From the NCBI RefSeq assembly GCF_963457605.1, contig NZ_OY735139.1, positions 2,262,001-2,326,000 of the forward strand: a stretch of DNA of 64,000 bases, in the 5' to 3' direction. Positions within the stretch are counted from its first letter, which is position 1; every line of letters begins with the position of its first letter. The notes beneath the pieces are model-generated. The model saw only the letters and a list, made by a program, of their open reading frames with translations. It had not been told where the DNA came from and did no database searches. The translations under genes and the position numbers were made by a program. Below are positions 8,733 to 37,502 of this stretch, one piece after another. The stretch is from an uncultured Gellertiella sp. GTDB lineage: Bacteria > Pseudomonadota > Alphaproteobacteria > Rhizobiales > Rhizobiaceae.

Positions 8733-8833
8733 AGTTTGTCAGGGAAAAGTGGAATCCGGTTTTCCCGAAAAGACAAACGACAACAAGGGGAGCCAGAGTC
8801 TGGCTGGTTCAATATGAGCCTGACAGACTCTAG
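8729..8833 (+). repeat. RIME-like palindromic repeat, copy B
   Basis: A second direct copy of the 105-base element with perfect CTAGAG/CTCTAG termini. It matches copy A closely through the first half (to GACAAACGA) and then follows the copy C sequence (CAACAAGGGGAGCCAGAGTC). The right CTAG supplies the TAG stop of the minus-strand thiolase gene. Confidence 0.85.
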
Positions 8834-10032
8834 TCCCGTTCCAGCAGCATCGAAATGCCCTGGCCGACGCCGATGCACATCGTCACCACCGCCCGGCGCT
8901 GCTTGCGCTCGTGAAGTTCCAGTGCGGCGGTGAGCGCGAGACGGGCGCCCGACATGCCGAGCGGATGGCCCAGCGCAATCGCGCCGCCATTAGGATTGAC
9001 GTGTTCGGCATCATCGGCAAGGCCGAGATGCCGGAGGCAGGCCAGCGCCTGCACCGCAAAAGCCTCGTTGAGCTCGAAAAGATCGATGTCGCCGACCGAG
9101 AGCCCGGCCCGCGCCAGCAACCGTTCCGTCGCCGGAACCGGGCCAATTCCCATCAGGCGCGGGGTAACACCCGCAACCGCCATGCCGGAGATGCGGGCAA
9201 GCGGCGTCAGGCCGTAGCGCGCCAGCGCCGGACCGGAGGCAATCAGCAGGGCTGCGGCACCGTCATTGACGCCCGAGGCATTGCCCGCCGTGACCGATCC
9301 GCCCTCGCGAAACGGGGCGGGCAGGGCTGAAAGCCGCTCCAGCGTCGTCTCGCGCGGATGCTCGTCCTGGGCGATCACCGTCACGGCGCCCTTGCGGTCG
9401 CGGATCTCGACCGGGGCAATCTCGCGGGCAAAGCGGCCCCGCTGCTGCGCACGGGCGGCACGGGCCTGGCTGTTCAGCGCAAACCGGTCCTGGTCGTCGC
9501 GCGAAATCGAAAAGGCCCGCGCCAGGTTTTCAGCCGTTTCCGGCATCGAATCGATGCCATATTGCCGTTCGATCAGGCTGTTGACGAAACGCCAGCCGAT
9601 GGTCGTGTCGTAAAGGGCTGTCGAGCGGGAAAAGGCGGAATCGGCCTTGGGCATCACCAGCGGCGCGCGGGTCATGCTTTCCACCCCGCCCGCAATCATC
9701 AGATCCGCTTCGCCGAGCCGGATGGCGCGGGCCGCATAGGAGACCGCGTCGAGCCCCGAGCCGCAGAGCCGGTTGATCGTCGTTCCGCCGGTGGTTTCCG
9801 GCAGGCCGGAGATGAGCACCGCCATCCGCGCCACATTCCGGTTGTCCTCGCCCGCCTGATTGGCGCAGCCAAGCACCACATCCTCGATGGCATCCGGATC
9901 GAGGTCGGGATGGCGGGCGATCAGCGCCCGGATTGGGTGGGCGGCGAGATCATCTGCCCGCACCGAAGCGAGAGCCCCGGCATGGCGGCCAATCGGCGTG
10001 CGCAGCCCGTCGACGATATAGGCATCACCCAT
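8830..10032 (-). CDS. 3-oxoadipyl-CoA thiolase (acetyl-CoA acyltransferase)
   Basis: 400-residue thiolase cleaving a 3-oxoacyl-CoA with CoA. Catalytic residues are visible: Cys90 in [11 protein letters not shown], the [11 protein letters not shown] segment, His in [10 protein letters not shown], and the second Cys in CIGVGQGIS. Sequence resembles the PcaF/PaaJ type (3-oxoadipyl-CoA to succinyl-CoA plus acetyl-CoA). I start at [13 protein letters not shown], with AAGGAACG upstream; a longer reading overlaps the previous gene. It overlaps the FadB-like gene by 8 bases. It is the last gene of the anthraniloyl-CoA operon and the expected final step. Its stop codon lies in repeat copy B. Confidence 0.88.
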
Positions 10033-12025
10033 CAGATCGTTCCTTTTCGGTTTCTGCCAGAAACATCGGGCCGCCCCGGTGGGCGGGAAAGCCATAGCCG
10101 TTGATCATCACCAGATCGATGTCACCGGCCCTGAAGGCAATGCCCTCCTCAAGCAAAGCCCGACCTTCCCCGGCCATGGCGGCAACAAGAGTGCGCACGA
10201 TGGTCTCGGCATCGATCCGGTGCGGGGTGATCCCCTTTTCGGCCCTGACCGCATCGATCAGGGCCGAAACTTCGGGATCGTCCTGCCGCTTGCCATCGAC
10301 ATGGGCATACCAGCCCTTGCCCGCCTTCTGGCCAAAGCGGCCGGCTTCGCAGAGCCGGTCGGCGAGCGGTGAATAGCGTGCGTCGGGATCGCGGCTTGCG
10401 GCCTGCCGCTTGCGCCGCGCCCAGGCGATGTCGAGACCGGCGAGATCGAAGACGGCAAACGGGCCCATCGCCATGCCGAAATCTTCCATCGCACGGTCGA
10501 TGTCGGCAGGCGATGCGCCATCCTCGACCAGAAATTCGGCCTGCCTGCGATAGGCGGAAAAGATCCGGTTGCCGATGAAGCCTTCGGTTACGCCGCAGGT
10601 AATGGCAAGCTTGCCGAGCCGTCGGGCAAAGGCAAGGCCCGTCGCCAGCACATCCGGCGCGGTCTTCGCGCCCTTCACCACCTCGCAAAGCCGCATGACA
10701 TGGGCGGGCGAGAAGAAATGCAGGCCGACGACGCGGGCGGGATCTCTGGTCCCTGCCGCCAGCCGGTCCGGGTCGAGATAGCTGGTATTGGTCGCCAGCA
10801 CCGCATCCGGACGGACAATCCGGTCGAGATCGGCAAACAGCGCCGCCTTGACCTCCATATCGTCAAAAACCGCCTCGATCACCAGATCGCAGCCGGACAG
10901 TGCTTCATTGCGATGGCTGACCTCCAGCCGCTGAAGCCGGGCCTGAAGGCCGGCCTCGTCGATCCGGCCCGAGGCGAGATTGCGCTTCAGGATGGTTTCG
11001 ATGCGGGCGCGGCCCGCCGTCGCCGCCTCCGGACTGCGGTCGACCGCAACAACGTGGAAACCGGCATCAAGCGCCGAAACCGCAATGCCCGATCCCATCA
11101 GTCCGGTCCCGGCAATGCCGATCATCTCCAGCCTGCGCGGCGAGACCCCTTCGAGTCCCTCTCCCTTTGCGGCAGCCCGTTCGGCAAAGAACACATGCCG
11201 GAGCGCCTTTGCCTGCGGGCTGTCCTTCAGCGCGAGAAAGGTCCGCCGCTCCTCGGCAAGTCCCTGTGCCAGCGGCACATGGGCGGAAGCCCGTACCAGC
11301 CTTGTCGCCTCGACAGGTGCAACCTGCCTCCGGGCCCGCGCCAGCACCTTTTTCTCCGCCCGGTCGATGTCGTCGAGGGCCGCGCTGGCGACCGGGCGCG
11401 CGCCGGTCCGCCGCAGCACTTCACCCACCAGCGCCAGGGCGCTTGACCGGGCGGCCTGAAGCAGATCGCCCTGTGTCCTCGCGTCGAGAATACCGAGCCC
11501 ATAGGCCTCGTCGGCGCCGATGATCCGCCCCGTGCCGATCATCTCGATGGCATCAGGCAGACCCGTCAGGCGCGGCAGGCGTTGGGTGCCGCCGGCGCCC
11601 GGCACCAGACCGAGCCTGACCTCGGGCAGGCCCAGCCTGGCGAAGGGACTTGCGATGCGAAAATGGCAGGCGAGCGCCAGTTCCAGCCCGCCGCCCAGCG
11701 CCACGCCGTTGATCGCCGCCACAACCGGCTTCCCAAAGGCCTCGATCCGCTCGACGAGGGCGGGAAGGATCGGTTCGGCGGGTGGCTTGCCGAATTCCCG
11801 GATGTCGGCTCCGCCGACAAAGCTCTTGCCCGTGCCGGTCAGCACCACGGCTCTGACGCCATCTGTCGCAAGCGCGAAATCCAGAGCTGCGGCCAGCCCC
11901 TGCCGCAAGCCCAGCGAAGCGGCATTGACCGGCGGATTGTCGAGGACGATTTCCAGCACGCCTTCCATCACCCGTGCGCAGACCTCGGGCGAAAAGACGT
12001 GTCGTTCGGTTTCGCTGCCAGCCAT
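10025..12025 (-). CDS. Bifunctional enoyl-CoA hydratase / 3-hydroxyacyl-CoA dehydrogenase (FadB-like)
   Basis: 666 residues. An N-terminal crotonase domain ([60 protein letters not shown]) is joined to an NAD-binding 3-hydroxyacyl-CoA dehydrogenase domain ([13 protein letters not shown]) and its C-terminal helical domain ([20 protein letters not shown]). It performs hydration and NAD-dependent oxidation of an acyl-CoA. In this operon it probably handles the ring-opened dicarboxylic CoA intermediate ahead of the thiolase. It lies 11 bases after ridA and overlaps the thiolase. Confidence 0.88.
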
Positions 12026-12036
12026 GATCGCCCCTT

Positions 12037-12432
12037 TTATTCCGGAATGACGGCGGTCGCCTGTATTTCGATCTTCGCCCGGTCTTCGACCAGCGCCACC
12101 ACCTGCACGGCGGCCATGGCCGGGAAATGCTTGCCGATCACGGCGCGATAGACCTCGCCCAGCCCCCTGGGGTCGGCGAGATATTCCGCCTTGTCGATGA
12201 AATACCAGGTCATGCTGGTGATGTGATCCGGCTTGCCCCCGGCCTCGGCGAGGATGGCGACGATATTTTCCAGCGTCTGGCGGACCTGGCCGACGAAATC
12301 ATCGGTTTCGAACCGGCACTGGCTGTTCCAGCCGATCTGGCCGCCGATGAAGACGGTGCGGCCCTCGGCCATCACCCCGTTCGAATAGCCCTTCGGCTGC
12401 ACCCAGCCCTCGGGCTGCAGGATCCTGTGCAT
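12037..12432 (-). CDS. RidA/YjgF-family enamine-imine deaminase
   Basis: 131-residue RidA-superfamily protein ([81 protein letters not shown]). The superfamily hydrolyses enamines and imines to ketones plus ammonia. Its ATG overlaps the acyl-CoA dehydrogenase stop (TGATG), so it is translationally coupled. Dearomatised 2-aminobenzoyl-CoA is an enamine whose nitrogen must be removed. A dedicated deaminase role is a strong inference but not shown. A GTG one codon upstream is possible. Confidence 0.85.
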
Positions 12433-13613
12433 CACTGTTTTTCCTTCAGAATGTCGCGGGCGATGATCAGTTTCTGCACTTCCGTCGCACCCTCGTAGAT
12501 GCGCAGCGCCCGGATTTCACGGTAGAGGCTTTCGGTGATCGCGCCGCATTCGACGCCGCGTCCGCCAAACATCTGCAGCGCCCGGTCGATCACCGTCTGG
12601 GCGGTTTCGGTGGCGGTCATCTTCGCCATCGCCGCCTCGCGGGTGGTGGCAAGACCCTGCACATCCCGCCGCCAGGCGGCGCGATAGGTGAGCAGCGCCG
12701 CGCCGTCTATGCCTGCCGCCATGTCGCCGAGCGCGCCCTGCGTCAGTTGCAGGTCGGCAAGCGTCGCGCCGAACATCTGCCGGGTGCGGGCGTGGTGGAC
12801 GGCCTCGTCAAGGGCGCGGCGGGCAAATCCGAGGGCGGCGGCTGCGACCGAGGCACGGAAAATGTCGAGGGTCCGCATGGCGATCTTGAAGCCCTCGCCC
12901 GGCGTGCCGAGCAATCGCGTCGCCTTGATGCGGCAAGCCTCAAGGCGGATGGTGGCAAGCGGATGCGGCGCGATGACGTGCAGGCGCTCGGCAATCGAAA
13001 AACCGGGATCGTCGGCATAGACCACGAAGGCGGAAATGCCGCGGGTGCCCGGTGCCTCGCCGGTACGGGCAAAGACCGTATAGACATCGGCGATGCCACC
13101 ATTGGAGATCCAGGTCTTTTCGCCGTCGAGCACATAGTGGTCGCCGTCGCGCCGGGCCGCACAGGTCATGGCCGCGACATCCGAGCCCGCCTGTTTTTCC
13201 GACAGGGCGAAGGCGGAAATCCAGTCGCCGGAGGTGACCTTCGGGAGAATGGCGGCCTTCAGCGCCGGCGAACCCGAGAGGCCGATGGCCCCGGTGCCGA
13301 GCCCCTGCATGGCAAAGGCGAAATCCGCCAGCCCGTCATGCCAGGCAAGGGTTTCGCGGGTAAGGCAGATGGCCCTGGAATCGATGGGGCCTGTCCCGGC
13401 ATGGCCGGTCGCCGTCGCCAGAAATCCGGCATCGCCGAGACTGCGCACCAGCCTGCGGCAGGCAGTGTCGGTATCCGCGTGGTCGATGCCCGCGAGCGCC
13501 CCGGTGGCGGCGAAGGCATCGAGCCGGGCGGCAAGGGCGCGATGCGCGTCGCCGAAAAACGGCCAGTCGAGCGGTTCTCGGTCCGGGCCGGAAAGCGCGC
13601 TTTTCTCAGCCAT
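12432..13613 (-). CDS. Acyl-CoA dehydrogenase
   Basis: FAD-dependent acyl-CoA dehydrogenase of 393 residues. The signature [18 protein letters not shown] and FAD/CoA-binding [21 protein letters not shown] are intact. The C-terminal domain has [24 protein letters not shown] and [26 protein letters not shown]. It starts at MAEKSALSG, one base after the enoyl-CoA hydratase stop. In this operon it would introduce a double bond in a cyclic or ring-opened CoA thioester; the exact substrate is not readable from sequence. Confidence 0.9.
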
Positions 13614-13614
13614 C

Positions 13615-14463
13615 TCAGTTGCCCTCGAATTCTGGCTTGCGCCTGGCGGCAAAGGCCTCGAAGGCGCGGCGGAAATCCTGGGTCGCCATGCAGATCGCCT
13701 GGGCCTGCGCCTCCGATTCGATCAGTTCCTCAAGTCCCATCGCCCATTCCTGGTTCAGCATGGTCTTGGTCATCGTATGGGCGAAATAGGGGCCGTCGGC
13801 GAGCGAGCGCGCAAGCGCCACGGCTTGCGCTTCCAGCACGTCGCCGCCGTGGATGGCATTGTAAAAACCCCAGTCTTTGCCCTCGGCTGCGGTCATGGAC
13901 CGCCCGGTGAACAGCAGTTCGGCGGCCCGTCCCTGGCCGATGATGCGCGGAAGAATGCCGCAGGCGCCCATATCGGCTCCGGCGAGCCCGACGCGGGTAA
14001 AGAGGAAGGCGGTCTTTGCCTCCGGCGTCGCAAGCCTGAGGTCGGACGCCATCGCCATGATCGCACCCGCCCCGGCGCAGATGCCGTCGACGGCGGCGAT
14101 GACCGGCTGCGGACAGCGCTTCATCGCCTTGACCAGATCGCCGGTCATCCGGGTAAAGGCAATCAGGTCAGGCATGCTCATCCGGGTCAAGGGCTCGATG
14201 ATGTCGAACACGTCGCCACCGGACGAGAAATTGCCGCCCGCGCCCGTCAGCACCACGGCGCGGATGTCGCTGGCATGGACCAGATCGCGGAACAGGTCCC
14301 TGAGCTCGGCATAGCTGTCGAAGGTCAGCGGGTTCTTCTTTTCCGGGCGGTTCAGCCGCACCGTCGCCACCCGTCCGTCGCCGCTCACCTCGAACAGGAA
14401 ATGTGTCGCTGCATAGCTGGCCAGGGGTTTCCTGTGACCCTGCATGATCGTGCTCGGTTCCAT
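13615..14463 (-). CDS. Enoyl-CoA hydratase / isomerase family protein
   Basis: 282-residue crotonase-fold enzyme. Oxyanion-hole segments are [23 protein letters not shown] and [66 protein letters not shown] strong AAGGAGCAG ribosome site precedes the ATG. Hydratases of this type occur in aminobenzoyl-CoA and benzoyl-CoA oxidation clusters and may carry out ring hydration or hydrolytic cleavage. It lies 71 bases after the SDR gene and one base before the acyl-CoA dehydrogenase. Confidence 0.87.
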
Positions 14464-14534
14464 ACCTGCTCCTTGACCCGTAAATCCCGTATCTGTCCCG
14501 CAGGCCGTCGGCCTGCCCGACGTCGCGCTGAACT

Positions 14535-15314
14535 CTATCCCGCCATGATCTCGCCGCCCGCCACGACGATCGCCTGTCCCGTGATCGACGAGGCCCCCGG
14601 CGAGGCGAGCCAGAGCACGGTGTCGGCGACCTCCTCAGGGGTGACCAGCCGGCCCTGCGGATTGCTCTTTTCAAGCGCGGCGCGGGCTTCCTGCGGCGTC
14701 TTGCCGGTCTTGGCGGAAATTGCCGCAAGCGCCCGGTCGATGATCGGCGTATCGGTATAGCCGGGGCAGACGGCATTGACGGTGACGCCCTTGCGGGCAA
14801 GCTCTAGCGCCAGCGCCCGGGTCAGGCCGATCACCCCGTGCTTTGCCGCACAATAGGCGCTGACATAGGCGTAACCGGTGACCCCAGCCGTCGAGGCGAT
14901 GTTGATGATCCGCGCGCCTGTCCCGCGGGCCTTCAGGTCCGGCAGAACCGCCTGCGTGACGTTGAACACGCCGGTGAGATCAATGCCGATCACCCGCGAC
15001 CAGAGATCGAGCGTCGTCCTTTCGAACGGCGCGCTCGGCGCTTCCCCGGCACTGTTGACCAGGATCGAGACCGGACCGAAGGCCGCGCGGGCCTGCGCCA
15101 GGCCGGCGGCAATCGCGTCCGGATCCGTCACGTCGAAGGCGGCGGCGACATGGGTGCGGTCGCCAAGCCCGGCGGCAAGGGCTGCGAGCGGTTCGCGTCT
15201 CCGTCCCGCCAGCGTCAGGCTTGCGCCCCGGCCATGCAGGGCGCGGGCGATTGCCGCCCCGATGCCGCTTCCGGCCCCGGTCACCAGTGCGTGGTGGTGG
15301 TCAAGATCAGCCAT
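14535..15314 (-). CDS. SDR-family 3-hydroxyacyl-CoA dehydrogenase
   Basis: Classical short-chain dehydrogenase of 259 residues: cofactor motif [12 protein letters not shown], catalytic YCAAK, and PGYTDTP after it. Likely oxidises a 3-hydroxy (ring) CoA thioester with NAD+. It starts 9 bases after the monooxygenase/OYE stop, making it gene two of the operon. SDRs at this position are usual in 2-aminobenzoyl-CoA clusters; substrate assignment is by context. Confidence 0.85.
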
Positions 15315-15323
15315 CGCTCTGCC

Positions 15324-17642
15324 CTACTTTGCCAGGGGCTGGGCGGCACGGGCGAGGTTCGCCTCATACTGGCCCTTGCCGGAATAATATTGCTTCGGCC
15401 AGGCAATGTCGCTGATGCCGATCCGGGCCGCCTCATGCAGTGTCCAGGCGGGGTCCGCCAGATGCGGGCGGGCCACCGCGCAGAGATCGGCGCGACCGGC
15501 GGCGATGATCGAATTGGCGTGGTCGGCCTCCGAAATCGCCCCGACCGCCATGGTATCGACATGCACCTCGTTGCGGATCCTGTCGGAAAACGGCGTCTGG
15601 AACAGGCGGCCATAGACCGGCTGCTCTTCCTTCCACACCTGACCCGAGGAGCAGTCGATGAGATCGGCCCCCGCTTCATGGAAGTAACTGGCAAAGAGGG
15701 CCGCATCCTCCGGCGTGTTGCCGCCTTCAAACCAGTCGTGGCAGGACAGTCTGACCGACATCGGCCTGTCCTTCGGCCAGACGGCCCGCATGGCGCGGAA
15801 TATCTCCAGCGGATAGCGGGCACGGTTCTCGTGGCTGCCGCCATAGTCGTCCTCGCGCCGGTTGGTCAGCGGCGACAGGAAGGAGGAGAGGAGATAGCCG
15901 TGGGCGCAGTGCAGTTCGAGCCAGTCGGCTCCCGCTGCAATCGCCCGTTCGGTTGCGCTGATGAAATCGCCCCTGACCCGCTCCATGTCGGCGCGGTCCA
16001 TGGCCTTCGGCACCGGCGAATGCCGGAGATAGGCCAGCGCCGAGGCGGAGATCAGCGGCCAGGCGCCTTCGTCAAGCGGCTGGTCGATCCCTTCCCAGGC
16101 GACCCTGGTCGAGCCCTTGCGGCCGGCATGGCCGAGCTGGATCGCCACCCTGGCATCGCTGTTGCCATGGATGAATTCCGTCAGCCTCTTCCAGCCCGCC
16201 GCCTGCTCGTCATTCCACAGGCCAAGACAGCCGGGGGTAATGCGGGCATCGGGTGACACGCAGGTCATTTCGCCGAAGATCAGCGCCGCACCGCCCAGCG
16301 CCCGCGCGCCGAGATGGACGAGGTGAAAATCGTTGATCAGCCCGTCCTGTGCCGAATACATTGCCATCGGCGAGACGACGATGCGGTTTTTCAGCGTGAG
16401 ACCGCGCACCCGGTAGGGGGTGAGCATCGGCGGCAAGGCCCGCTCGCCCTCCTTCACCGCCAGGCCGGTGCGGGCAGCAAACCAGCGCTCGTAGCCTTCC
16501 AGCCAGGCCCGGTCGCGCAGCCTCAGGTTTTCGTGGCTGATGCGCTGCGAGCGGGTCAGCATCGAATACATGAACTGTTCCGGCTCCAGCGTGTCGGCAT
16601 AGCGCCGTCCCACCACCTCGAACCATTCCATCGCATTGCGGGCGGCATTCTGGATGCGGGCGACATCCACCCGGCGGATCTCCTCATAGGCGTCGAGCAC
16701 CTCGGGAATATGCTGCCGGTCATGGCCGAGCGTTTCAAACTGGCGGGCGAGTTCGATGGCATCGTCGATTGCGAGCTTTGTGCCGGAGCCGATGGCAAAA
16801 TGCGCGGTATGGGCAGCATCCCCCATCAGCACCACATGGCTCTGGCCATTGAAATGGCTCCACTTTCCGCAGATCAGCCGGTTGAAGTTCAGCCAGGCCG
16901 AGCCGCGCAGGTGGCGGGCATTGGTCATCAGCGGGGCGCCGTCGAGCACCTCGGAAAACAGCTTCTCGCAGAAATCGATGGAGCCCTGCTGGTCGAGCGC
17001 CCCGAGCCCGTGCTTTTCATAGGCCTCTTCGGTGGTCTCGACGATGAAGGTCGAGGTCTCCTCGTCGAACTTGTAGATATGGGCCTGGAACCAGCCATGC
17101 TCGGTCTTGCGGAAATCGAAGGTGAAGGCGTCATAGAGCCGCCTGGTGCCAAGCCAGATATAGCGATTCGGCCGGGTGACGAGATCGGGCTGGAACACCT
17201 CGCGATAGGCATTGCGGATCTTCGAATTCAGCCCGTCCGAAGCAATGATCAGGTCGGCATCGGGATATTGCAGATCGCTGTCGACATCGGTCTCAAACAC
17301 CAGCTCGACGCCGAGCCGCTCGCAACGGCGCTGCAGGATGTTGAGCAGCTTCTTGCGGCCGATGCCGACGAAGCCGTGGCCGCAGGTGCGCTGCCGCGTG
17401 CCCTTGAACCAGACCTCGATATCGTCCCAATGGTTGAAGGCATGCTGGATCTCGGCCGCCGTCTCGGGGTCCCAGACCTTCATCGCCTCCATGGTCGCAT
17501 CGGAAAACACCACGCCCCAGCCAAAGGTGTCATAGGGGCGGTTGCGCTCGACCACCGTGATGTGATGGGCAGGGTGAAGCGTCTTCATCAGGAGGCCGAA
17601 ATAGAGCCCTGCGGGCCCTCCGCCTATGCACACGATCCGCAT
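15324..17642 (-). CDS. 2-aminobenzoyl-CoA monooxygenase/reductase-type fusion (salicylyl-CoA 5-hydroxylase/OYE family)
   Basis: 772 residues in two modules. The N-terminal FAD aromatic hydroxylase (about 1-370) has [12 protein letters not shown] for [13 protein letters not shown] in the middle and [22 protein letters not shown]. The C-terminal old-yellow-enzyme module (about 385-772) has [55 protein letters not shown] and [10 protein letters not shown]. The fusion matches the enzyme that monooxygenates and then hydrogenates anthraniloyl-CoA in Azoarcus; databases often label it salicylyl-CoA 5-hydroxylase. I prefer MRIVCIGGG, nine bases from GGGAGG; ATGs at 17648 and 17663 are alternatives. 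It leads the operon, 47 bases below an 18-base palindrome. Confidence 0.88.
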
Positions 17643-17689
17643 GTCCATCGCCCTCCCGAACATGGCAGCACCGGCTCGGTGCCGCCAGT

Positions 17690-18496: not shown

Positions 18497-18635
18497 TGCT
18501 GTTCTCCCTTCTGATCGGCGGTCACGGAACGCGCAAAGCTTGCGCGATATGCACCGGCTTCCGCCATGAACCGGCGCATAGTTGAAAGATGGCATCGGCG
18601 CTTGTGGCCCGCCTGCACGCAACCCATCGCGTGAT

Positions 18636-22282: not shown

Positions 22283-22389
22283 GCGCCACCTCTCTCGTGT
22301 CAGGGGTCAACGGTCTGCCGGTGAGCAGCCGGAATGCCGGTTCTTCCCGGCAGGACGCGGTTACCCGATCGCAAGGCGTCCGGAACCGC

Positions 22390-26457: not shown

Positions 26458-26459
26458 GC

Positions 26460-30176: not shown

Positions 30177-30270
30177 GCTTGTCCTCACCACAGGAAAGAG
30201 GGGGAACTGCGCGCCCCATGGGCGGGGCTCCTCCCCGTCAGCACGGGAAGGGTGTCAGCAGGTTGGGGTA

Positions 30271-30290: not shown

Positions 30291-30307
30291 AGGGATGGGG
30301 CCGGTCT

Positions 30308-30410: not shown

Positions 30411-30414
30411 GGGA

Positions 30415-31200
30415 TCAACCGGCAACCAGCGCCATTGCCCGGACCGGCGAGCCGGTGCCGTCGACGAATTTCAGCGGCGCGGCGATCAGCACCGCCCCCT
30501 TCGGCGGCAACTGGTCGAGATGGCAGAGGCTGGCCAGACCATAGCGGTTGGCCTTGTGCATCAGGTTATGGGCGGGGAAGGGCGGGTTCATGCCGCCGGC
30601 CGCACCGGCATCGGTGCCGATGGTTTCCGTGCCCCAGCCGATTGCGCCGCGCGAGATGACATATTCGATCGCATCGACGGTCGGACCGGGCGAATGCGGG
30701 CCATTGGCGTCGGCATTGAGGAAGGTGTCGCTCGAGCCGTTGCGCTTGTACCAGTCGGTGCGCATCAGCACCCAGCTGCCCTTCTCGATGGCACCATGCT
30801 CAGCCTCCCAGGCCCTGATGCCATCGGCACTGAGCAGGTAATCGGCATTGGCAGCCGCTTCTGCCGAGCAGTCGATGACATTGACCGGGGCGACGAAATT
30901 CTGTGCCGGAATCCGGTCGGTGGTGCCGTCCTGGTAGTCCTTGCCGGTGATCCAGTGCACGGGCGCATCGAAATGGGTGCCGGTATGTTCGCCAAGCTCC
31001 AGCCAGTTCCAGGCCCAGAACGGACCGTTCTTGTCATAATGCGAGATATTGTGCACCTTCACCTCAGGCGTGTTGACGGCGAAATCCGGCGGCAGCTTGA
31101 TGACAGGCGTATCCGGTCCGAGGGGGGCGGTGAGGTCGACGACCTTGACCGATCCGGACAGCAGGGCGGAGGCGAGCTGGTTCAGTGCAGATGATGACAT
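30415..31200 (-). CDS. Cyclase-family metal-dependent hydrolase, isatin-hydrolase/kynurenine-formamidase type
   Basis: 261 residues with the hallmark metal-binding motif HTGTHFDAPVHW (residues 72-83) of the cyclase family, whose characterised members include kynurenine formamidase and isatin hydrolase. Supporting segments: VVDLTAPLGPDTPVIKLP at the N terminus, SWVLMRTDWYKR and GWGTETIGTDAG. Start at MSSSALNQL; a much longer upstream reading is unsupported. The bulky N-terminal region WAWNWLELGEHTG and length are closer to isatin hydrolase as I remember it than to the shorter KynB. In the cluster it would hydrolyse isatin to isatinate. Kynurenine formamidase activity is the main alternative. 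Confidence 0.78.
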   Translation of the reverse strand: MSSSALNQLASALLSGSVKVVDLTAPLGPDTPVIKLPPDFAVNTPEVKVHNISHYDKNGPFWAWNWLELGEHTGTHFDAPVHWITGKDYQDGTTDRIPAQNFVAPVNVIDCSAEAAANADYLLSADGIRAWEAEHGAIEKGSWVLMRTDWYKRNGSSDTFLNADANGPHSPGPTVDAIEYVISRGAIGWGTETIGTDAGAAGGMNPPFPAHNLMHKANRYGLASLCHLDQLPPKGAVLIAAPLKFVDGTGSPVRAMALVAG

Positions 31201-31522
31201 GGCAGGTTCCCCGATTGGCCGCCGGTCGCCGCCGTCCTCTTGGCAGCCCAGACCTCCCGTGCGGCAGTCATGGGCAGAGCCTATGTCACAAAATATGTGG
31301 GTGCAAGTATTTTGAGCGGCAAGCCCGGGTGTTCTCGCCTTCATCTGCGGCATCGGGTCTGACCGGATGCAAAAGCGTGAAATGCCGGTGCGAAGGCGCT
31401 TTGTGCAAGGCGCGGGCCTGTTTTGCGCCGGAAGATGCCTTGCAAGCTGCAAGCGGGCTTGACCGTGATTTGAAAATTGTATGCATTTGAGAATAATGGA
31501 TCGGGCCGGAGAGCGGGATATC
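31201..31522. promoter_or_regulatory. Divergent promoter region between the cyclase and FAD oxidoreductase 2
   Basis: 322 bases without a gene. It holds the ACAAAATATGT-type site at 31288, nearer the cyclase, and an A/T-rich stretch around 31467-31500 (TGAAAATTGTATGCATTTGA) that probably includes the promoter of the rightward FAD oxidoreductase gene. No RNA or small ORF is convincing. Confidence 0.45.
31288..31306. promoter_or_regulatory. Candidate operator shared with the iorA upstream region
   Basis: ACAAAATATGTGGGTGCAA is identical to the site at 24233 at 16 of 19 positions; the three differences are consecutive (GGG for TTT). It is 88 bases upstream of the cyclase start and 217 bases upstream of the FAD oxidoreductase gene. 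Confidence 0.5.
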
Positions 31523-33094
31523 ATGAGCAGCTATGATGCGATTATCATCGGCGCGGGGCACAATGGCCTCGCCGCTGCCGTCAACCTTGCCGAAAAGGGC
31601 TGGTCGGTGGCCGTGGTCGAGGCCCGCGACACTGCCGGCGGGGCGGTCAAGACATCCGGGCTGACGTTGCCGGGCTATCGCCATGATCTGGCGGCGATGA
31701 ATCTCTCGATGTTTGCAGGCTCCGCCTTCCATGCGGCCCATGCGGCTGATCTTGCCCGGCACGGGCTGGCATTCGTTCCCGCCGAACACTGCTTTGCCAG
31801 CATCTTCCGCGACCAGACCTGGCTCGGTGTCAGCAAGGATCTGGAGACGACAGTCGCCCGCATTGCGGCCTTTTCCGTCAGCGATGCCGAAGCCTGGCGC
31901 CGGATGTTTGCCGAATTTGGCGGCGATGCCCCGCATATATTCGGCCTGCTCGGCGCGCCGATGCCCTCCCTTGCGGCGCTGAAGGTGGTGTGGAAGGCCT
32001 GGCGGCAGAAGGGCACCGGCTGGCTCTGTGACACCGCCCGGATGCTGCTTGCCTCGCCCCGCGATTTCCTCGATGCGCGCTTTGAAAGCGACCGGGTGAA
32101 GGCGATGATGGCGGCCTGGGGCATGCATCTGGATTTCGCCCCCGATACGGCGGGTGGCGCCCTGTTTCCCTATCTGGAATCCATGGCCAACCAGGCCTTC
32201 GGCATGGTGATCGGCAAGGGCGGTGCCTCCACCATCATCGATGCCATGGTCGCCCTGCTCCGGGAAAAGGGCGGGGTGCTCAGGACCTCCGCGCCGGTCG
32301 AGGCCATCGAGCAGGAAAATGGCCGGGCAAGCGCCGTGCGGCTTGGCTGCGGCGAGGTGCTGACGGCCCGCCGGGCGGTGATCGCCAATGTCCATCCGCA
32401 GCTGGTGTTTGGCAAGCTGCTGCAACCGGATGCGGGGCGGGCGGATTTCGACGCGAGGATCGCGGGCTTCCGGGCGGGGCCGGGAACGATGATGATCCAT
32501 CTGGCCCTTGACGGTTTGCCGGACTGGACCGCAGGCGAAGAGCTGAAGCAATTTGCCTATGTGCATCTGGCCCCCGATCTGCCGATGATGGCGAAAGCCT
32601 ATGCCGAAGCGGCCTCCGGCCTGCTGCCTTGCGAACCGGCACTGGTCGTCGGCCAGCCGACCGCGCTCGATCCGTCGCGGGCACCGGAGGGCAGGCATGT
32701 GCTCTGGGTGCAGGTGCGGGTGCTGCCCGCCACCATCAGGGGCGATGCCGCGTCTGAAATTTCGGGCCGCGACTGGGCCGGGATCAAGGAGGCCTATGCC
32801 GACCGGGTGATCCGGCTGATCGAGCGCCATGCCCCCGGCCTTTCCACCCGCATTCTTGCGAGAAGCATCCATTCGCCCGCCGATCTCGAGGCGGAAAATC
32901 CAAATCTGGTCGGTGGCGACAACCTGTCGGGCAGCCATCATCTCGACCAGAATTTCCTGTTCCGGCCGGTGGCCGGCTATTCCCGCTACAGGACGCCGGT
33001 GCCGGGCCTGTTCCTCTGCGGTGCCTCCACCTGGCCGGGGGCGGGAACCGGGGCGGGTTCCGGACACATGCTGTCAAAAATGCTGGCGGGCTGA
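31523..33094 (+). CDS. NAD(P)/FAD-dependent oxidoreductase, CrtI/phytoene-desaturase-like (copy 2)
   Basis: 523 residues. FAD-binding motif YDAIIIGAGHNGLAAAVNLAEKGWSVAVVEARDTAGG at the N terminus and GLFLCGASTWPGAGTGAGSGHML at the C terminus. The start MSSYDAIII is preceded by GGAGAGCGGG. Paralogue of the protein ending at 28587. The pair flank the cyclase gene and are transcribed in opposite directions. Substrate unknown; oxidation of an indolic ring or side chain is inferred from context. Confidence 0.8.
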   Translation: MSSYDAIIIGAGHNGLAAAVNLAEKGWSVAVVEARDTAGGAVKTSGLTLPGYRHDLAAMNLSMFAGSAFHAAHAADLARHGLAFVPAEHCFASIFRDQTWLGVSKDLETTVARIAAFSVSDAEAWRRMFAEFGGDAPHIFGLLGAPMPSLAALKVVWKAWRQKGTGWLCDTARMLLASPRDFLDARFESDRVKAMMAAWGMHLDFAPDTAGGALFPYLESMANQAFGMVIGKGGASTIIDAMVALLREKGGVLRTSAPVEAIEQENGRASAVRLGCGEVLTARRAVIANVHPQLVFGKLLQPDAGRADFDARIAGFRAGPGTMMIHLALDGLPDWTAGEELKQFAYVHLAPDLPMMAKAYAEAASGLLPCEPALVVGQPTALDPSRAPEGRHVLWVQVRVLPATIRGDAASEISGRDWAGIKEAYADRVIRLIERHAPGLSTRILARSIHSPADLEAENPNLVGGDNLSGSHHLDQNFLFRPVAGYSRYRTPVPGLFLCGASTWPGAGTGAGSGHMLSKMLAG

Positions 33095-33184
33095 CAGGTG
33101 GCCGGTCCATCATCCAAGATTTGGCCTATCCTTTGGCCGGGATGCGGATAGAGTAGTGAAAACGTGCATACGGGGGATCAGGGT

Positions 33185-33676
33185 GTGGATCTGGAAGTCA
33201 TTGTTCAGGGCGGGCAGGCGGAAAACAAGCCGGAGCTTCGGCTGTGGCTGCGCATGCTGTCCACCACCAAGCTGATTTCGCAGGAAATCCGCCGCAGGCT
33301 GCGGGCCGAATATGGTGCAACCCTGCCGCAATTCGATCTTCTCGCCCAGCTTTACCGTGAACGCGACGGCCTGAGGCTCGGCGAGCTTTCCCGCCGCACC
33401 ATGGTCACCAATGGCAATGTCACCGGGCTGGTCGAACGGCTGGAGGTGGATGGTCTCGTCATCAGGGAAACGCCGGATGGCGACCGCCGGGTAACCGTGG
33501 CAAAGCTGACGGCCCGTGGCGAGAGCCTGTTTGCCGAAATGGCAACCGCCCATGAGGGCTGGCTGCGCGACATGATGGCCGACGTTCCGCCGGAGCGGCT
33601 GCAATCGCTGCTGCGCGATACCGGCGAGGTCAAGGCCTCCGCCCGAAACCACCTTTCCGGCCCGCACGACGAATAG
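33185..33676 (+). CDS. MarR-family regulator, second copy
   Basis: About 163 residues. Core LRLWLRMLSTTKLISQEIRRRLRAEYGATLPQFDLLAQLYRERDGLRLGELSRRTMVTNGNVTGLVERLEVDGLVIRETPDGDRRVTVAKLTARG is a typical MarR winged helix with the DxRR wing. I favour the GTG at 33185, eight bases after GGGGG; a GTG at 33164 gives seven more residues. It follows the second FAD oxidoreductase by 90 bases on the same strand. Related MarR proteins accompany benzoyl-CoA-type operons, so the palindrome at 17690 may be its target (inference). Confidence 0.8.
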   Translation: MDLEVIVQGGQAENKPELRLWLRMLSTTKLISQEIRRRLRAEYGATLPQFDLLAQLYRERDGLRLGELSRRTMVTNGNVTGLVERLEVDGLVIRETPDGDRRVTVAKLTARGESLFAEMATAHEGWLRDMMADVPPERLQSLLRDTGEVKASARNHLSGPHDE

Positions 33677-33682
33677 CCGCGT

Positions 33683-34357
33683 TCAGTGCCCCTTCTCGGT
33701 GCGGAACTTGCGCTCCAGCAGGCCGACCAGCCGCACCATCGGCCAGAGAATGGCGATATAGATCAGCGCTGCGGCAATCAGCGGCGAGGGATTGGCAAAC
33801 AGCGCCTGGGCATTGTTGGCTTCCTTCAGCAGTTCCGGCAGTGCCACGGTCGAGGCCAGCGACGTATCCTTGAACATCGACACGCAGTTGCTGGTGGTGG
33901 GGGCGACGACCACCCGGAAGGCCTGCGGCAGCACGATCTTGCGCAGCACGATCAGGAAGGGCAGGCCAAGCGCGGCTGCGGCCTCGAACTGGCCCCTGGC
34001 GATGCTTTCGATGCCGGAGCGGAACACTTCCGCCGAATAGGCCGACATCACCAGCGACAGTGCCATGATCGCCGAAGACCAGGAGGACAGGCTGATGCCG
34101 ACGAAAGGCAGGGCGAAATAGATGAGGATCAGCACCACCAGCACCGGTGCGGCGCGGAAAATGTCGATATAGACGACGGCCGCCAGCCGCAGCGGCTTTT
34201 TCGCGTAGAGCCGGATCAGGCTGATCACCAGTCCCGCCGGCACGCCGATGCAGATGCTGGCAATCCCCAGCAGGAATGTGTGGAACAAGCCGCGCATCAG
34301 GGCAGGAAAGCTGCCCAGCATTACCTGGGTATTGAAGAATGTATCGATCAGCGACAT
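33683..34357 (-). CDS. Polar amino acid ABC transporter permease
   Basis: 224-residue HisM/GlnP-type permease with transmembrane helices and the motif YIDIFRAAPVLVVLILIYFALP. The EAA loop is RGQFEAAAALGLPFLIVLRKIVLPQAFRVVVAPTTSNCVSMFKDTSL. It lies 125 bases downstream of the binding-protein gene, separated by a terminator-like hairpin. No ATPase and no second permease gene is nearby, so it must act as a homodimer and borrow or encode its ATPase elsewhere. Confidence 0.88.
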   Translation of the reverse strand: MSLIDTFFNTQVMLGSFPALMRGLFHTFLLGIASICIGVPAGLVISLIRLYAKKPLRLAAVVYIDIFRAAPVLVVLILIYFALPFVGISLSSWSSAIMALSLVMSAYSAEVFRSGIESIARGQFEAAAALGLPFLIVLRKIVLPQAFRVVVAPTTSNCVSMFKDTSLASTVALPELLKEANNAQALFANPSPLIAAALIYIAILWPMVRLVGLLERKFRTEKGH

Positions 34358-34430
34358 GAAGCCCCCATGCAGCGCGGTGCCGGATCGCCTCCCCGCCGAT
34401 CAGGATACCGCGCGGGAAAGGCAACCGGAC

Positions 34431-34467
34431 GAAAAATCCCGCATCGACAGGACCTGCGGATGCGGGA
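34431..34467 (-). terminator. Intercistronic terminator/attenuator between binding protein and permease
   Basis: On the minus strand, TCCCGCATC and GATGCGGGA form a perfect 9-bp stem with a 13-base loop followed by TTTTT. It lies between the amino acid binding-protein stop and the permease start. Such hairpins commonly give the binding protein higher expression than the membrane parts. Confidence 0.7.
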
Positions 34468-34482
34468 GAGAATTTTGCGAGG

Positions 34483-35283
34483 TCAGCCCTTCGGGATCGG
34501 CTGCTCGGTCACGGTCGAGCTGTCGGCGGGCGCGTCATTGCCGAACCACTTCTTGTGGATCGCGGCCATGGTACCGTCCTTCTTCATGGCGGTGATGGCA
34601 TCATTGACCTTGGCCAGCAGCGGATGGTCCTTCGTCATCATCAGGCCATATTGTTCGCCGGTCTTGATCCGGCTCTTGACGGCGAGGTCGGTCATCTTCA
34701 GGAAGGCATACTGCATGCCCGGCACGTCGGAGACAGCCGCCTCGATGCGGCCTGCCATGAGGTCGAGCAGCATGTCCTGCTGGGTATTGTAGCCCTTGAC
34801 CTCGGTAATCCCCAGCGACGCCTTGTTGTCATTCGACCATTTCTCGCCGGTCGAGCCGGAGAGCACGCCGACGGTCTTGTCCTTCAGGTCCCCTTGGGCG
34901 GCGATGGCGGAATCCGCCTTGGCCGCAATGCCCATGTCGGAATCATAGTAGGGCTGGGTGAAGGACTGGCTCTGCAGGCGCTCCTTGGTGATGGTGATCG
35001 AGGAGATCGCCACATCGATGCGCTTGGAGCTGGTGGCGGCAAACAGTGCCTGGAATCCGAGATCGGAAAATTCCGGGGTCAGACCCAGGCGCTTGGCGAC
35101 TTCGGTGGCGATTTCCGCCTCGAAGCCTTCGAATGTGCCGCTTTCATTCTTGAATTCGAAGGGCGGGTTGCTCGGATAGGAGCCGATCAGCAGCTTGCCG
35201 TCTTCGGCAGCGGCAAAATGCGGCAAAGCGAACAGGCTGGCGGTGGCAAACAGGGCCATCACGGTACGGCGTGTATAGGACAT
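34483..35283 (-). CDS. Polar amino acid ABC transporter substrate-binding protein
   Basis: 266 residues with a signal peptide (MSYTRRTVMALFATASLFALPHFAAA, cleavage before EDG). Family-3 binding protein fold: GSYPSNPPFEFKNESGTFEGFEAEIATEVAKRLGL, FSDLGFQALFAATSSKRIDVAISSITITKERL, and SGSTGEKW. Imports an amino acid or amino-acid-like ligand; specificity cannot be read. Located beside an aminotransferase, which fits uptake and transamination of an aromatic amino acid. Confidence 0.9.
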   Translation of the reverse strand: MSYTRRTVMALFATASLFALPHFAAAEDGKLLIGSYPSNPPFEFKNESGTFEGFEAEIATEVAKRLGLTPEFSDLGFQALFAATSSKRIDVAISSITITKERLQSQSFTQPYYDSDMGIAAKADSAIAAQGDLKDKTVGVLSGSTGEKWSNDNKASLGITEVKGYNTQQDMLLDLMAGRIEAAVSDVPGMQYAFLKMTDLAVKSRIKTGEQYGLMMTKDHPLLAKVNDAITAMKKDGTMAAIHKKWFGNDAPADSSTVTEQPIPKG

Positions 35284-35384
35284 CGACTTCTCCCGGTTTT
35301 TTCAGGTTGGCTGCTTCACTACGTTCCCCCGGCACCTGTTGTTTTGGCTGCCGGTATTGCTTTGGCTCCCCAGGGAGCAAACCT

Positions 35385-36593
35385 TCAGGCGAATGCCGCG
35401 ACCATCCGGTCGAGCGCCGTGCCGATATCCCTTTCGTCGCGGCAGATGCACATCCGCAGGAAAGCCCGCGAGGCATCGCCGAACAGATAGCCGGGCGCAA
35501 GCCCGACGCGGGCCTGTTCCAGAATGCGCCGGCAGGCCTCCCGCGAATCCGGCTCGCCTTCAAAGGCGAAGAAGGCATACATGCCGCCCCGGGGTTTCTC
35601 CGGCAGAAGGATACCGGGTATTTGTGCCAGCCGGTCATGGGCCATGTCCAGCCCTGTCTTGCAGCGGGCGCGAATCTCGTCGATCAGCGGCTCGCCGTCG
35701 ACAATGGCTGTTGCCGCCGCCGCCTGCACCATGGCGGGGGTGCCGCTGTTGACATACTGGGTCATCGCGCCAAGCTGCGGTGCGACCGAGGCCGGATGAG
35801 TCAGCCAGCCGATCCGCCAGCCGGTCATCGCCCAGGCCTTGGAGAAACTGTTGATCGACATCACCCGGTCATTTTCGTCCGCGATGGCAAGGATGGAGGG
35901 GGCGACCGGCCCGTCGAAATAAAGCCGCCCATAGACCTCGTCGGAGAGGATCCAGATTCCGGTCTTGCGGCTGAAATCGAGCAGCGCCTGCATCTCCGCC
36001 GCACTTGCCGTCCAGCCGGTCGGGTTGGAGGGCGTCGAGAGGAAAATCGCCCGGGTGCGGGCGTCGCAGCGGTCAAACAGCTGGTCGAGATCCAGCCGCC
36101 AGTCGGTGTCGAAACGCAGCGCCACAGGCCGCGGTTCTGCCGCCGAGAGATGGATGACGCTGTGGATGTTCGGCCATTGCGGCCCGACATAGACGACATT
36201 GCTGCCGGGATCGGCAATCAGCTGCACGGCCAGAAACAGCGCCTGCATGCCGCCGGGCGTGACGGTGGTGCGGCTGACGGGAACGGGCCTCTGGTGAATG
36301 CGGCTCTGATAGGCCGACAGTGCCTCGTTCAGCCGGTCGAGGCCGCGCATGTTGGGGACATAGAAGGTCAGGCCCTCGTCGAGCGCCTGCTTTGCCGCAT
36401 CGCGGATGAAGGTCGGCGTCACCATGTCGCCCTCGCCATACCAGAGCGGGATGACATCGCCGATTTCGCGGGCGCGAACCGCGAGAAGCGCAATGTTTTC
36501 CGTCACGAGATCGCGTATCTGGCCGCGAATGCCCTGCAAGGCAAAGCGTTCCGGTTTCAGCTGCAGCCGGTCGAGCGCGGTTTGAATGGTCAT
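35385..36593 (-). CDS. PLP-dependent class I/II aminotransferase
   Basis: 402 residues of the aspartate/aromatic aminotransferase fold. VTPGGMQALFLAVQ binds the cofactor phosphate, STPSNPTGW is the conserved Asn segment, SDEVYGRLYFDG follows, and SINSFSKAWAMTGWRIGW holds the PLP lysine. The C-terminal substrate Arg region is RAFLRMCICR. AGAGGAA precedes the ATG. Likely deaminates an imported amino acid (tryptophan, tyrosine or phenylalanine would all fit the surrounding pathways). A palindrome related to that upstream of the aminobenzoyl-CoA operon lies about 95 bases upstream. Confidence 0.87.
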   Translation of the reverse strand: MTIQTALDRLQLKPERFALQGIRGQIRDLVTENIALLAVRAREIGDVIPLWYGEGDMVTPTFIRDAAKQALDEGLTFYVPNMRGLDRLNEALSAYQSRIHQRPVPVSRTTVTPGGMQALFLAVQLIADPGSNVVYVGPQWPNIHSVIHLSAAEPRPVALRFDTDWRLDLDQLFDRCDARTRAIFLSTPSNPTGWTASAAEMQALLDFSRKTGIWILSDEVYGRLYFDGPVAPSILAIADENDRVMSINSFSKAWAMTGWRIGWLTHPASVAPQLGAMTQYVNSGTPAMVQAAAATAIVDGEPLIDEIRARCKTGLDMAHDRLAQIPGILLPEKPRGGMYAFFAFEGEPDSREACRRILEQARVGLAPGYLFGDASRAFLRMCICRDERDIGTALDRMVAAFA

Positions 36594-36688
36594 TCGGTTC
36601 CTCTGCGGGCCGGTGAGGCAAGGGTCACGCCGTCCGGCCTGTATTTTATCGGATCGTGCGGCATATTTCCGGCAAATTCAAGCGATAA

Positions 36689-36702
36689 ATTTTAAGTTTA
36701 AA
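36689..36702. promoter_or_regulatory. Palindromic core related to the 17690 operator, upstream of the aminotransferase
   Basis: ATTTTAAGTTTAAA matches 13 of 14 bases of the core of the perfect palindrome at 17690. It is 96 bases upstream of the aminotransferase start, inside the 129-base gap after the aldolase gene. It suggests a common regulator for the two operons. Confidence 0.42.
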
Positions 36703-36722
36703 GGGTCTCCGGGGCGCCCCGT

Positions 36723-37502
36723 TCAGGTGGCCGACAGGCTTGCCCTTGCGGCCTCCATGCTGGCACTGACGGCAGCGGTGAGATGCATGGCATCGCTGGC
36801 CAGAATGAAGAATCTGAGGCCCAGCGCGGCAAAGCGGGGGAGGTCCCGGGTGTCGGGCCGGAAGATGCCACAGGTTCGCCCCTGTGAACGGCAGGTCGCG
36901 GCGATGGTGGTGATTGCCTCGTCGAGCGCCGGTCGCCCGTCCGTTGCCAGTGCGCCAAGCGAGACCTGGAGATCGCCGGGACCGATGAAGATCACGTCGA
37001 CACCTTCGACCGCGGCAATCTCGCCGATATTGGCAAGGCCTTCGGCATTTTCGACCTGGATCGACACCAGCACCGAGCGGTTTGCCGTCTCGAGATAATC
37101 GGGGATACGGTAGCCATAGCCGGAGGCGCGGCCCGGTCCGACGCCGCGGCGGCCAAGCGGCGGGTAACGGGCGGCCGAGACCACGGCGCGTGCCTGTTCG
37201 GCGGTCGACACCATCGGCACCATGATCCCCTTCGCCCCGGCATCGAGAACCCCGGCGATGGCTTCCGGCGCAGAGCCGGGAACCCGGACCATGGCGGCCA
37301 CGCCATGCAGGTCGGCAGCCCGCAGCAGGTCTTCCACCATCCCCCGCCCGATTTGCGAATGCTCGCCGTCGATGCAGATGAAATCCGGCTTTCCAAGCGC
37401 GATGATCTCGATGGCGGCGGGATGGGCGATATTGGCGAAGATGCCGAACAGCGGCGCGCCGGAGAGGCAGGTTTCCCGAAACGACGGAAATGCAGGGTTC
37501 AT
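36723..37502 (-). CDS. HpcH/HpaI-family class II aldolase
   Basis: 259 residues. Cleaves 4-hydroxy-2-oxo acids such as 2,4-dihydroxyhept-2-enedioate to pyruvate plus an aldehyde, with a divalent metal. Visible motifs: FICIDGEHS (Glu47, His48), MVRVPG (Arg73), GIMVPMVSTAEQA, and the metal-binding VENAEGL and DVIFIGPGDL. It may be the HpaI step of the hpa pathway, though it sits 35 kb from hpaFED. No strong ribosome site is visible before the ATG. Neighbours: aminotransferase downstream on the same strand, rnd divergent. Confidence 0.82.
   Translation of the reverse strand: MNPAFPSFRETCLSGAPLFGIFANIAHPAAIEIIALGKPDFICIDGEHSQIGRGMVEDLLRAADLHGVAAMVRVPGSAPEAIAGVLDAGAKGIMVPMVSTAEQARAVVSAARYPPLGRRGVGPGRASGYGYRIPDYLETANRSVLVSIQVENAEGLANIGEIAAVEGVDVIFIGPGDLQVSLGALATDGRPALDEAITTIAATCRSQGRTCGIFRPDTRDLPRFAALGLRFFILASDAMHLTAAVSASMEAARASLSAT

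Follow-up and report, generated by a model that had tools for sequence, protein, structure and literature searches.

A recurrent gene block in an uncultured Gellertiella sp. with predicted routes converging on isatin and leading to 2-aminobenzoyl-CoA

Gene content and organization of the block

The analysed DNA stretch, hereafter the window, comprises 64,000 nucleotides of contig NZ_OY735139.1 from an uncultured Gellertiella sp., the genome of which consists of two contigs (4.17 Mb). Positions 8830–37502 of the window are occupied by a block of genes encoding, among others, a putative isatin hydrolase, a 2-oxoacid:ferredoxin oxidoreductase (IOR), and an operon for oxidation of 2-aminobenzoyl-coenzyme A (CoA). 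On balance, this block is probably a catabolic hub of modular build, in which routes meet at isatin and exit to 2-aminobenzoyl-CoA. A prediction made earlier from the sequence alone (the original prediction) had placed six components here: the enzyme set for 2-aminobenzoyl-CoA oxidation, an isatin-hydrolase-like cyclase, the ferredoxin enzyme, two flavin adenine dinucleotide (FAD) oxidoreductases, two MarR regulators, and two transporters. Each of them was found by gene calling, Pfam and NCBIfam searches, and a match to structure 4j0n. The block also holds a VOC-family protein, a class I/II aminotransferase, and an HpcH/HpaI aldolase, none of which had been named.

Gene spacing and strand define the following transcription units. 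The operon headed by the putative 2-aminobenzoyl-CoA monooxygenase/reductase (ACMR) forms one unit on the minus strand (17663–8830), in which called genes either overlap, by up to 71 bp, or are separated by gaps of up to 71 bp. An ABC transporter and the VOC protein form another minus-strand unit (24135–17897), and the IOR genes a plus-strand unit (24256–28043). Isatin hydrolase, the first FAD oxidoreductase (FAD1), and the first MarR regulator (MarR1) share a minus-strand unit (31200–28062), while the second members of both pairs (FAD2 and MarR2) are encoded on the plus strand (31481–33676). The aldolase, aminotransferase, solute-binding protein, and permease genes constitute the last minus-strand unit (37502–33683). 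Promoter and terminator scans of the block returned values near those of shuffled controls.

Isatin hydrolase, ferredoxin oxidoreductase, and 2-aminobenzoyl-CoA operon

The hydrolase gene (30415–31200, minus strand, ATG at 31200) encodes a protein that matched isatin hydrolase B of Labrenzia aggregata (LaIHB; 4j0n) with 408 bits and 67% identity (172/258), and LaIHA with 57% identity (145/254). PMC6117287 names the metal ligands and catalytic residues of isatin hydrolases and refers to assays of LaIHB; gene context is absent from the portion consulted. In the alignment, LaIHA residues H69, H73, D75, H79, D193, H207, W59, W61, and W80 are all kept in the window enzyme. These include the His, His, and Asp ligands of Mn as well as catalytic H79, D193, and H207. 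There are two exceptions: at Gln219 the window enzyme has Ala, which the LaIHB row shares, and at Tyr204 it has Phe. In a 60-row tree, the window hydrolase fell inside the LaIHB clade (clade A, 36 rows) with support of 100/99, the remaining 24 rows grouping with LaIHA. The hydrolases of genomes G011 and G027 (62–63%) were counted as clade A, with which the tree agrees. Conserved residues and tree position, as well as the high identity to LaIHB, bear out the cyclase of the original prediction and indicate that it very likely acts on isatin.

The IOR alpha gene (24256–26457, plus strand) encodes an IorA-type protein that matched TIGR03336 with 262 bits, under the NCBIfam cut-off of 650.9. It carries a GDG...N motif at 496 and a CxxCGNC motif at 671, which we take to be the thiamine pyrophosphate (TPP) and Fe-S cysteine motifs of this enzyme. 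The IorB-type beta gene (~26460–28043, plus strand, start taken from the reading frame) combines POR and DUF6537 domains and matched NF006179 with 696 bits (cut-off 348). We propose that this enzyme is an isatinate:ferredoxin oxidoreductase.

ACMR (15324–17663, minus strand) is a 779-amino-acid fusion of a flavin hydroxylase (FAD_binding_3) with an Old-Yellow-Enzyme-type domain (Oxidored_FMN), which is the expected architecture. We take this two-domain arrangement to be of the 2-aminobenzoyl-CoA type, an assignment that rests on architecture and context; NF006101, the NCBIfam model it passes, names it 'bifunctional salicylyl-CoA 5-hydroxylase/oxidoreductase'. The same strand carries, according to Pfam, genes for a short-chain dehydrogenase (SDR; 14535–15314; PF13561), an enoyl-CoA hydratase (13615–14463; PF00378), an acyl-CoA dehydrogenase (12432–13652), a RidA-family protein (12037–12435; PF01042), a bifunctional enoyl-CoA hydratase/3-hydroxyacyl-CoA dehydrogenase (10025–12025; ECH_1, 3HCDH_N, 3HCDH), and a thiolase, the last gene of the operon (8830–10095; Thiolase_N/C).

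Co-occurrence in other genomes and plasmids

The sample consisted of 121 related genomes from 117 genera, including that of the window and four of the same genus. ACMR was present in 60 genomes, IOR in 43, isatin hydrolase in 32, FAD1 in 22, and the aldolase in 12. An AMP-ligase homologue was found in 55 genomes, a Rieske beta subunit over the cut-off in 19, and a styrene/indole monooxygenase in 10. The same-genus genome G004, which possesses the set, also carries both an indole-monooxygenase-like gene and a Rieske beta gene. FAD1 matches in G055 and G076 (31–32%), Rieske beta (PF00866) matches that fell short of the family threshold (nine of 28 genomes), and a second HpcH match in G040 (42%) were left out of the counts.

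Both IOR (Fisher p = 3e-20, n = 121) and ACMR (p = 6e-13, n = 121) occurred in 32/32 hydrolase genomes, and a clade-A hydrolase in 22/22 FAD1 genomes at an identity of at least 56% (p = 1e-19, n = 121) and in 12/12 aldolase genomes (p = 1.5e-9); these values take related genomes as independent and are thus overstated. For the aldolase, ten of the 12 pairs lay on the same contig within ~52 kb. FAD1 accompanied the hydrolase in 22 of the 27 clade-A genomes, and ACMR was present in 42 of the 43 genomes with IOR. This outcome of the comparative search that the original prediction had called for supports its proposed join from the hydrolase via isatinate and the ferredoxin enzyme to anthraniloyl-CoA.

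Each of the 60 ACMR genomes contained at least one of IOR and the ligase homologue, which is what formation of the same CoA ester by the two enzymes would predict. The ligase was present in 18/18 ACMR genomes without IOR and IOR in 6/6 of those without the ligase, although the latter result alone has a chance probability of ~0.1, which tells against leaning on it. The operon is not confined to genomes with an anthranilate-CoA ligase homologue, a restriction that the original prediction had named as speaking against it. Among 15 named ACMR genomes, IOR was present in 12 and absent from three.

Across 37 annotated stretches, hydrolase, FAD1, FAD2, IOR, MarR1, the family-5 transporter, and ACMR recurred in varying order. 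In G447, G473, and G499, IOR and hydrolase are neighbouring genes. On plasmids, IOR and hydrolase stand in one run with FAD1 and/or MarR between them; the run is hydrolase-FAD1-MarR-IOR in Tritonibacter mobilis and Sulfitobacter mediterraneus. A plasmid of Alloyangia pacifica carries ACMR, SDR, RidA, hydrolase, FAD1, MarR, both IOR subunits, FAD2, and a transporter within 20 kb. Even in Tsukamurella, a member of another phylum, a plasmid stretch combines SDR, two FAD enzymes (one FAD1-like, 43%; one FMO-like), IOR, and hydrolase. The set recurs in relatives well beyond chance.

Proposed pathway

Read from the observed gene families, active-site residues, and linkage, the following reactions are proposed for the organism of the window. 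Isatin hydrolase would open isatin to isatinate (2-aminophenylglyoxylate). In a CoA-dependent oxidative decarboxylation, the IorAB-type enzyme would then turn isatinate into 2-aminobenzoyl-CoA, so that neither free anthranilate nor its ligase would be involved. The product would be dearomatised by ACMR and degraded by beta-oxidation through the remaining enzymes of the operon. Two inputs into isatin are envisaged. In one, FAD1/FAD2 would act as oxidases of a compound of the oxindole or dioxindole type, for which the family-5 ABC transporter may be the importer; the likeliest single step for FAD1 is that from dioxindole to isatin. In the other, an imported 3-hydroxyoxindolyl amino acid (dioxindolylalanine, that is, oxidised tryptophan) would be converted to the 2-oxoacid by the aminotransferase and cleaved by the HpcH aldolase to isatin and pyruvate.

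Several observations weigh against this scheme. ACMR likely has another feed, since an AMP-ligase homologue (75% identity; G000:C2:1421764-1423383, L212), putatively a 2-aminobenzoate-CoA ligase by its context, is encoded outside the block and adjoins a kynureninase-like gene (56%), which points to kynurenine. There is no adjacent ferredoxin gene. Five of the 27 clade-A genomes are without FAD1 and 15 without the aldolase. In a phylum-wide sample, the hydrolase was detected in 25/398 genomes, and 12 annotated loci from it, viewed as stretches of 16–35 kb only, contained IOR in seven cases and ACMR in four. IOR went unmatched on 17 of the 57 plasmid records that carry a hydrolase. Mesorhizobium loti pML2037 has FAD1/FAD2 and the ABC transporter with no hydrolase match, and in Sulfitobacter indolifex the same genes lie beside hydroxyproline genes, ~64 kb from one hydrolase gene (the first of two hydrolase matches on that record). 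Finally, Variovorax makes anthranilate from a nine-gene region, iadC-K2, from which iadAB are excluded by name, and C7H7NO, a formula fitting 2-aminobenzaldehyde, appears in that work (PMC12633357); IOR is therefore not needed for some of the anthranilate formed there.

FAD oxidoreductases

FAD1 (28587–30191, minus strand) is a CrtI/CrtO-like FAD oxidoreductase according to Pfam, NCBIfam, and tree, and the proposed isatin maker. FAD2 (31481–33094, plus strand; Pfam, tree) is its paralogue, 40–41% identical. Among solved structures, both gave only weak matches, including phytoene desaturase and amine oxidases, and AlphaFold on four FAD1 rows returned a mean predicted local distance difference test score (pLDDT) of 39.4. 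In G422 (L271), genes for SDR, indole monooxygenase, flavin reductase, hydrolase, and FAD1 form one run, the hydrolase stop and the start of FAD1 overlapping; Azospirillum thermophilum has the same run with a transporter gene. The product of IifB is 3-hydroxyindolin-2-one (PMC6221969), and the FAD enzyme would therefore most simply make isatin from this compound. These operons render the isatin-forming FAD enzymes of the original prediction plausible, and we regard the case for FAD1 as a maker of isatin as evenly balanced.

Alternatively, the FAD pair, the ABC transporter, and the VOC protein may degrade some other N-heterocycle or conjugate and be mere neighbours of the isatin genes, the isatin part being fed by the aldolase module alone. 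This is what the separation of FAD1/FAD2 and transporter from the hydrolase in S. indolifex and M. loti would suggest, and two of the five clade-A genomes without FAD1 do possess the aldolase. We nevertheless judge it unlikely, given that every FAD1 genome in the sample has an isatin hydrolase, that the two genes overlap in L271, and that a hydrolase was found on 17/18 plasmid records with at least 54% FAD1 identity, among the matches listed (20 of 30 FAD1 records, many of them close Sulfitobacter relatives).

Aminotransferase and aldolase

Isatin could also be released by the HpcH/HpaI-type pyruvate aldolase (36723–37502, minus strand; Pfam, relatives HpaI/GarL in the PDB). It is 34% identical to HpaI, and HpaI residues H45, R70, E149, and D175, which we assume to be catalytic or metal-binding, are kept in the window protein, ten orthologues, and the homologues from Paracoccaceae La 6 and G447. 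The neighbouring aminotransferase (35385–36593, minus strand) belongs to class I/II, PRK06108 subfamily (NF004770, 428.7 bits, cut-off 422). Aldolase, aminotransferase, amino-acid binding protein, and permease genes form an operon in the window, G003, G004, G042, and G071. The placement of a pyruvate aldolase next to isatin hydrolase can be understood if the enzyme cleaves dioxindolyl-pyruvate, which is a 4-hydroxy-2-oxoacid. The known oxidation products of tryptophan include dioxindolylalanine (PMC8228365), and the aminotransferases Aro8 and TyrB are reported to join isatin to the alanine beta-carbon (PMC13397446).

Remote HpcH genes adjoin hydrolase or IOR together with another aminotransferase and an amino-acid permease, or with a GlcD-type oxidase. 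The former arrangement is seen in G447, where one strand encodes an aminotransferase from the NCBIfam subfamily of the window enzyme, a further pyridoxal phosphate enzyme, a porin, an amino-acid permease, a GntR regulator, HpcH (28%), IOR, and hydrolase. The latter is found in La 6 (GlcD-type oxidase, HpcH (44%), hydrolase, FAD1). In S. indolifex, the hydrolase is preceded by a gene of the DHDPS family. Two aldolase families, HpcH and DHDPS, thus adjoin isatin hydrolase in different lineages. That the window aldolase makes isatin is possible but falls somewhat short of probable. The chain as a whole (import of dioxindolylalanine, transamination, aldolase cleavage to isatin and pyruvate, and conversion of isatinate to 2-aminobenzoyl-CoA by the ferredoxin oxidoreductase, the same enzyme (IadAB) performing the post-isatinate step in auxin loci) is a tentative proposal.

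A luciferase-like monooxygenase gene lies divergently beside the aldolase, or one gene away, in 8/12 aldolase genomes. It was seen in L206–L209, L215, and L286, and a flavin-reductase-like gene adjoins it in L286. The genome of the window has an unlinked homologue at C2:2722898 (76% to the G024 copy). At 40520–42322, the window contains a 600-amino-acid open frame with no Pfam match, which recurs near the aldolase operon in three same-genus genomes.

Substrate of the ferredoxin oxidoreductase

The family name of the enzyme and the closeness of an aminotransferase gene, in G447 as well as in the window, might suggest that IOR acts on indolepyruvate or another aryl pyruvate supplied by the aminotransferase, and not on isatinate. 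This seems quite improbable, as IOR accompanies every hydrolase in the sample and the ~20-kb plasmid stretches share the IOR-hydrolase run and show no aminotransferase. On records of two other phyla, moreover, the position next to the hydrolase is taken by a TPP 2-oxoacid-decarboxylase-type enzyme unrelated to IOR (Deinococcus L297 and Rhodococcus L298 plasmids). Deinococcus psychrotolerans has, in a single run, ACMR, SDR, MarR, hydratase, acyl-CoA dehydrogenase, AMP-ligase, isatin hydrolase, TPP enzyme, and RidA; in Rhodococcus erythropolis R138, the hydrolase is followed by the TPP enzyme. Neither hydrolase record gave an IOR match at E 1e-100. Such a decarboxylase-type enzyme would yield 2-aminobenzaldehyde from isatinate and then the acid, so that a ligase would be needed, whereas the IOR route would need none. 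In Ruegeria pomeroyi, a thioesterase gene adjoins IOR and could free anthranilate from the CoA ester. We consider it likely that the window IOR acts on isatinate and forms the CoA ester.

Regulators, transporters, and neighbouring genes

MarR1 (28062–28568, minus strand) and MarR2 (33164–33676, plus strand) were identified by Pfam, the best PDB matches of the former being 3cjn and 7kym. The Dpp/Opp-type ABC transporter (18636–24135, minus strand; Pfam) consists of two ATPases, two permeases, and a family-5 solute-binding protein, the last of which was present in 16/37 annotated stretches. The VOC/glyoxalase-fold protein (17897–18673, minus strand; Pfam) often adjoins the transporter and was found in 11/37 stretches. 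The second transporter comprises an amino-acid ABC permease and a family-3 solute-binding protein (33683–35283, minus strand; Pfam, operon kept in relatives) with no ATPase gene adjacent.

The region next to the block (5483–8547) encodes an HpaB-type monooxygenase (6020–7585), a small gene product (5483–5992) labelled a putative flavin reductase without a family search, and an AraC regulator (7603–8547). The monooxygenase was considered as the oxygenase of the block and set aside, as none of the 36 other stretches (37 annotated in total) shows it close to the hydrolase.

Indole and auxin as entry substrates

Neither the Rieske beta subunit (PF00866, E 0.001) nor the styrene/indole monooxygenase (PF17885) had a match in the genome of the window, which leaves it without the entry enzymes best known for auxin (iad) and indole (iif). 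Indole itself would be the substrate if the block worked as do the SDR-monooxygenase-flavin reductase-isatin hydrolase-FAD operons of relatives. A clade-A hydrolase was indeed present in 9/10 genomes with the indole monooxygenase, eight times within ~22 kb, and an indole-monooxygenase-like gene lies 8–17 kb from the hydrolase in three of the four other same-genus genomes. With no such gene in the genome itself, and with the HpaB-type monooxygenase of the window standing near no other hydrolase, indole is a rather remote candidate.

Indole-3-acetate, the substrate named in the original prediction, fares worst. Published iad loci need a Rieske oxygenase (PMC9613470, PMC12633357); the block has none, as the prediction itself had noted, and the genome-wide search for the beta subunit was negative, also for the iacD type, IacA, which initiates the iac route, not having been searched for. 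An ordinary auxin locus, in which indole-3-acetate is oxidised to isatin by enzymes encoded here or elsewhere in the genome and degradation ends at anthranilate, is very unlikely: the IorAB markers (Pfam, NCBIfam), two MarRs, and isatin route typical of iad loci (PMC9613470), the nine relatives holding both hydrolase clades, and the second-best solved match of MarR1, 7kym (103 bits), a structure from that auxin paper, are outweighed by the absence of AMP-ligase and iadG/iadH-type genes among the Pfam-annotated block genes, weak matches (31–41 bits) of MarR1 and MarR2 to the auxin-binding IadR structures 7kfo and 3cdh, and a hydrolase of the other clade. It is the clade-B hydrolase that goes with Rieske iad genes, the beta subunit occurring in 9/14 clade-B genomes versus 9/27 clade-A genomes.

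Comparison with known systems

No mechanistic difference is expected between the window hydrolase and LaIHB or LaIHA. The window aldolase has the catalytic and metal residues in common with the class II pyruvate aldolases HpaI and GarL and differs in its proposed new acceptor, the ketone isatin.

Compact SDR-indole monooxygenase-isatin hydrolase-FAD clusters were observed in L265 (G354) and L271, with the flavin reductase seen in the latter. The GS-A..R indole cluster of Providencia rettgeri has a gene order in common with L271: SDR, styrene monooxygenase, flavin reductase, cyclase, oxidoreductase, and a further gene (PMC9871250). Set side by side by description only, its oxidoreductase GS-O is, from gene order and kind, probably a FAD1 homologue, and the L265 and L271 clusters may explain its role. 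The cyclase product is given there as N-formylanthranilate, which has the same formula as isatinate (PMC9871250). The genome of the window differs from this system in lacking a PF17885 match.

The aerobic 2-aminobenzoyl-CoA pathway of Azoarcus shares the two-domain monooxygenase/reductase and beta-oxidation genes with the block. The same is true of the pathway in Cupriavidus (PMC6221969). What sets the block apart is the proposed entry from isatinate by IOR instead of a ligase.

The iad loci of Variovorax, Bradyrhizobium, and Ruegeria likewise have an IorAB-type enzyme, a cyclase, and two MarRs; their reported intermediates are isatin and isatinic acid, and the end product is anthranilate (PMC9613470, PMC12633357). 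Ruegeria pomeroyi has an auxin-binding MarR and grows with auxin (PMC9613470). The cyclase IadI is annotated as kynurenine formamidase (PMC12633357), and that of R. pomeroyi is a 49% isatin-hydrolase homologue. In contrast to these loci, the block has no Rieske oxygenase, ligase, iadG, or iadH, its hydrolase belongs to a separate clade, and the FAD pair, ABC transporter, aminotransferase, and aldolase are found in their place. The original prediction had left undecided whether parts of its set occur in published auxin loci. IorAB and cyclase do, and iad genes adjoin ACMR in Bradyrhizobium, running on to it in Bradyrhizobium liaoningense; the aminotransferase-aldolase module had not been used in that prediction.

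The iad loci with IorAB, cyclase, and Rieske genes, as well as the adjoining monooxygenase in Bradyrhizobium, are thus already known. Apparently new are the Rieske-free version, the direct entry into the CoA route, and the proposed aldolase step to isatin and pyruvate; no isatinate:ferredoxin oxidoreductase, dioxindolyl-pyruvate aldolase, or isatin-making FAD enzyme is described in the portion of the open-access literature consulted, and the main text of a 2025 preprint on iad contains neither iadA nor iadB. If IOR makes 2-aminobenzoyl-CoA from isatinate, the role of iadA/iadB would be filled, and the auxin, indole, and tryptophan-oxidation routes would share one exit. A 2018 review (PMC6221969) asked whether indole breakdown truly passes through isatin or whether isatin is a dead end, a question on which such an exit would bear. 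The enzyme families of the block are ordinary ones; their arrangement is real, recurs, and has been described only in part.

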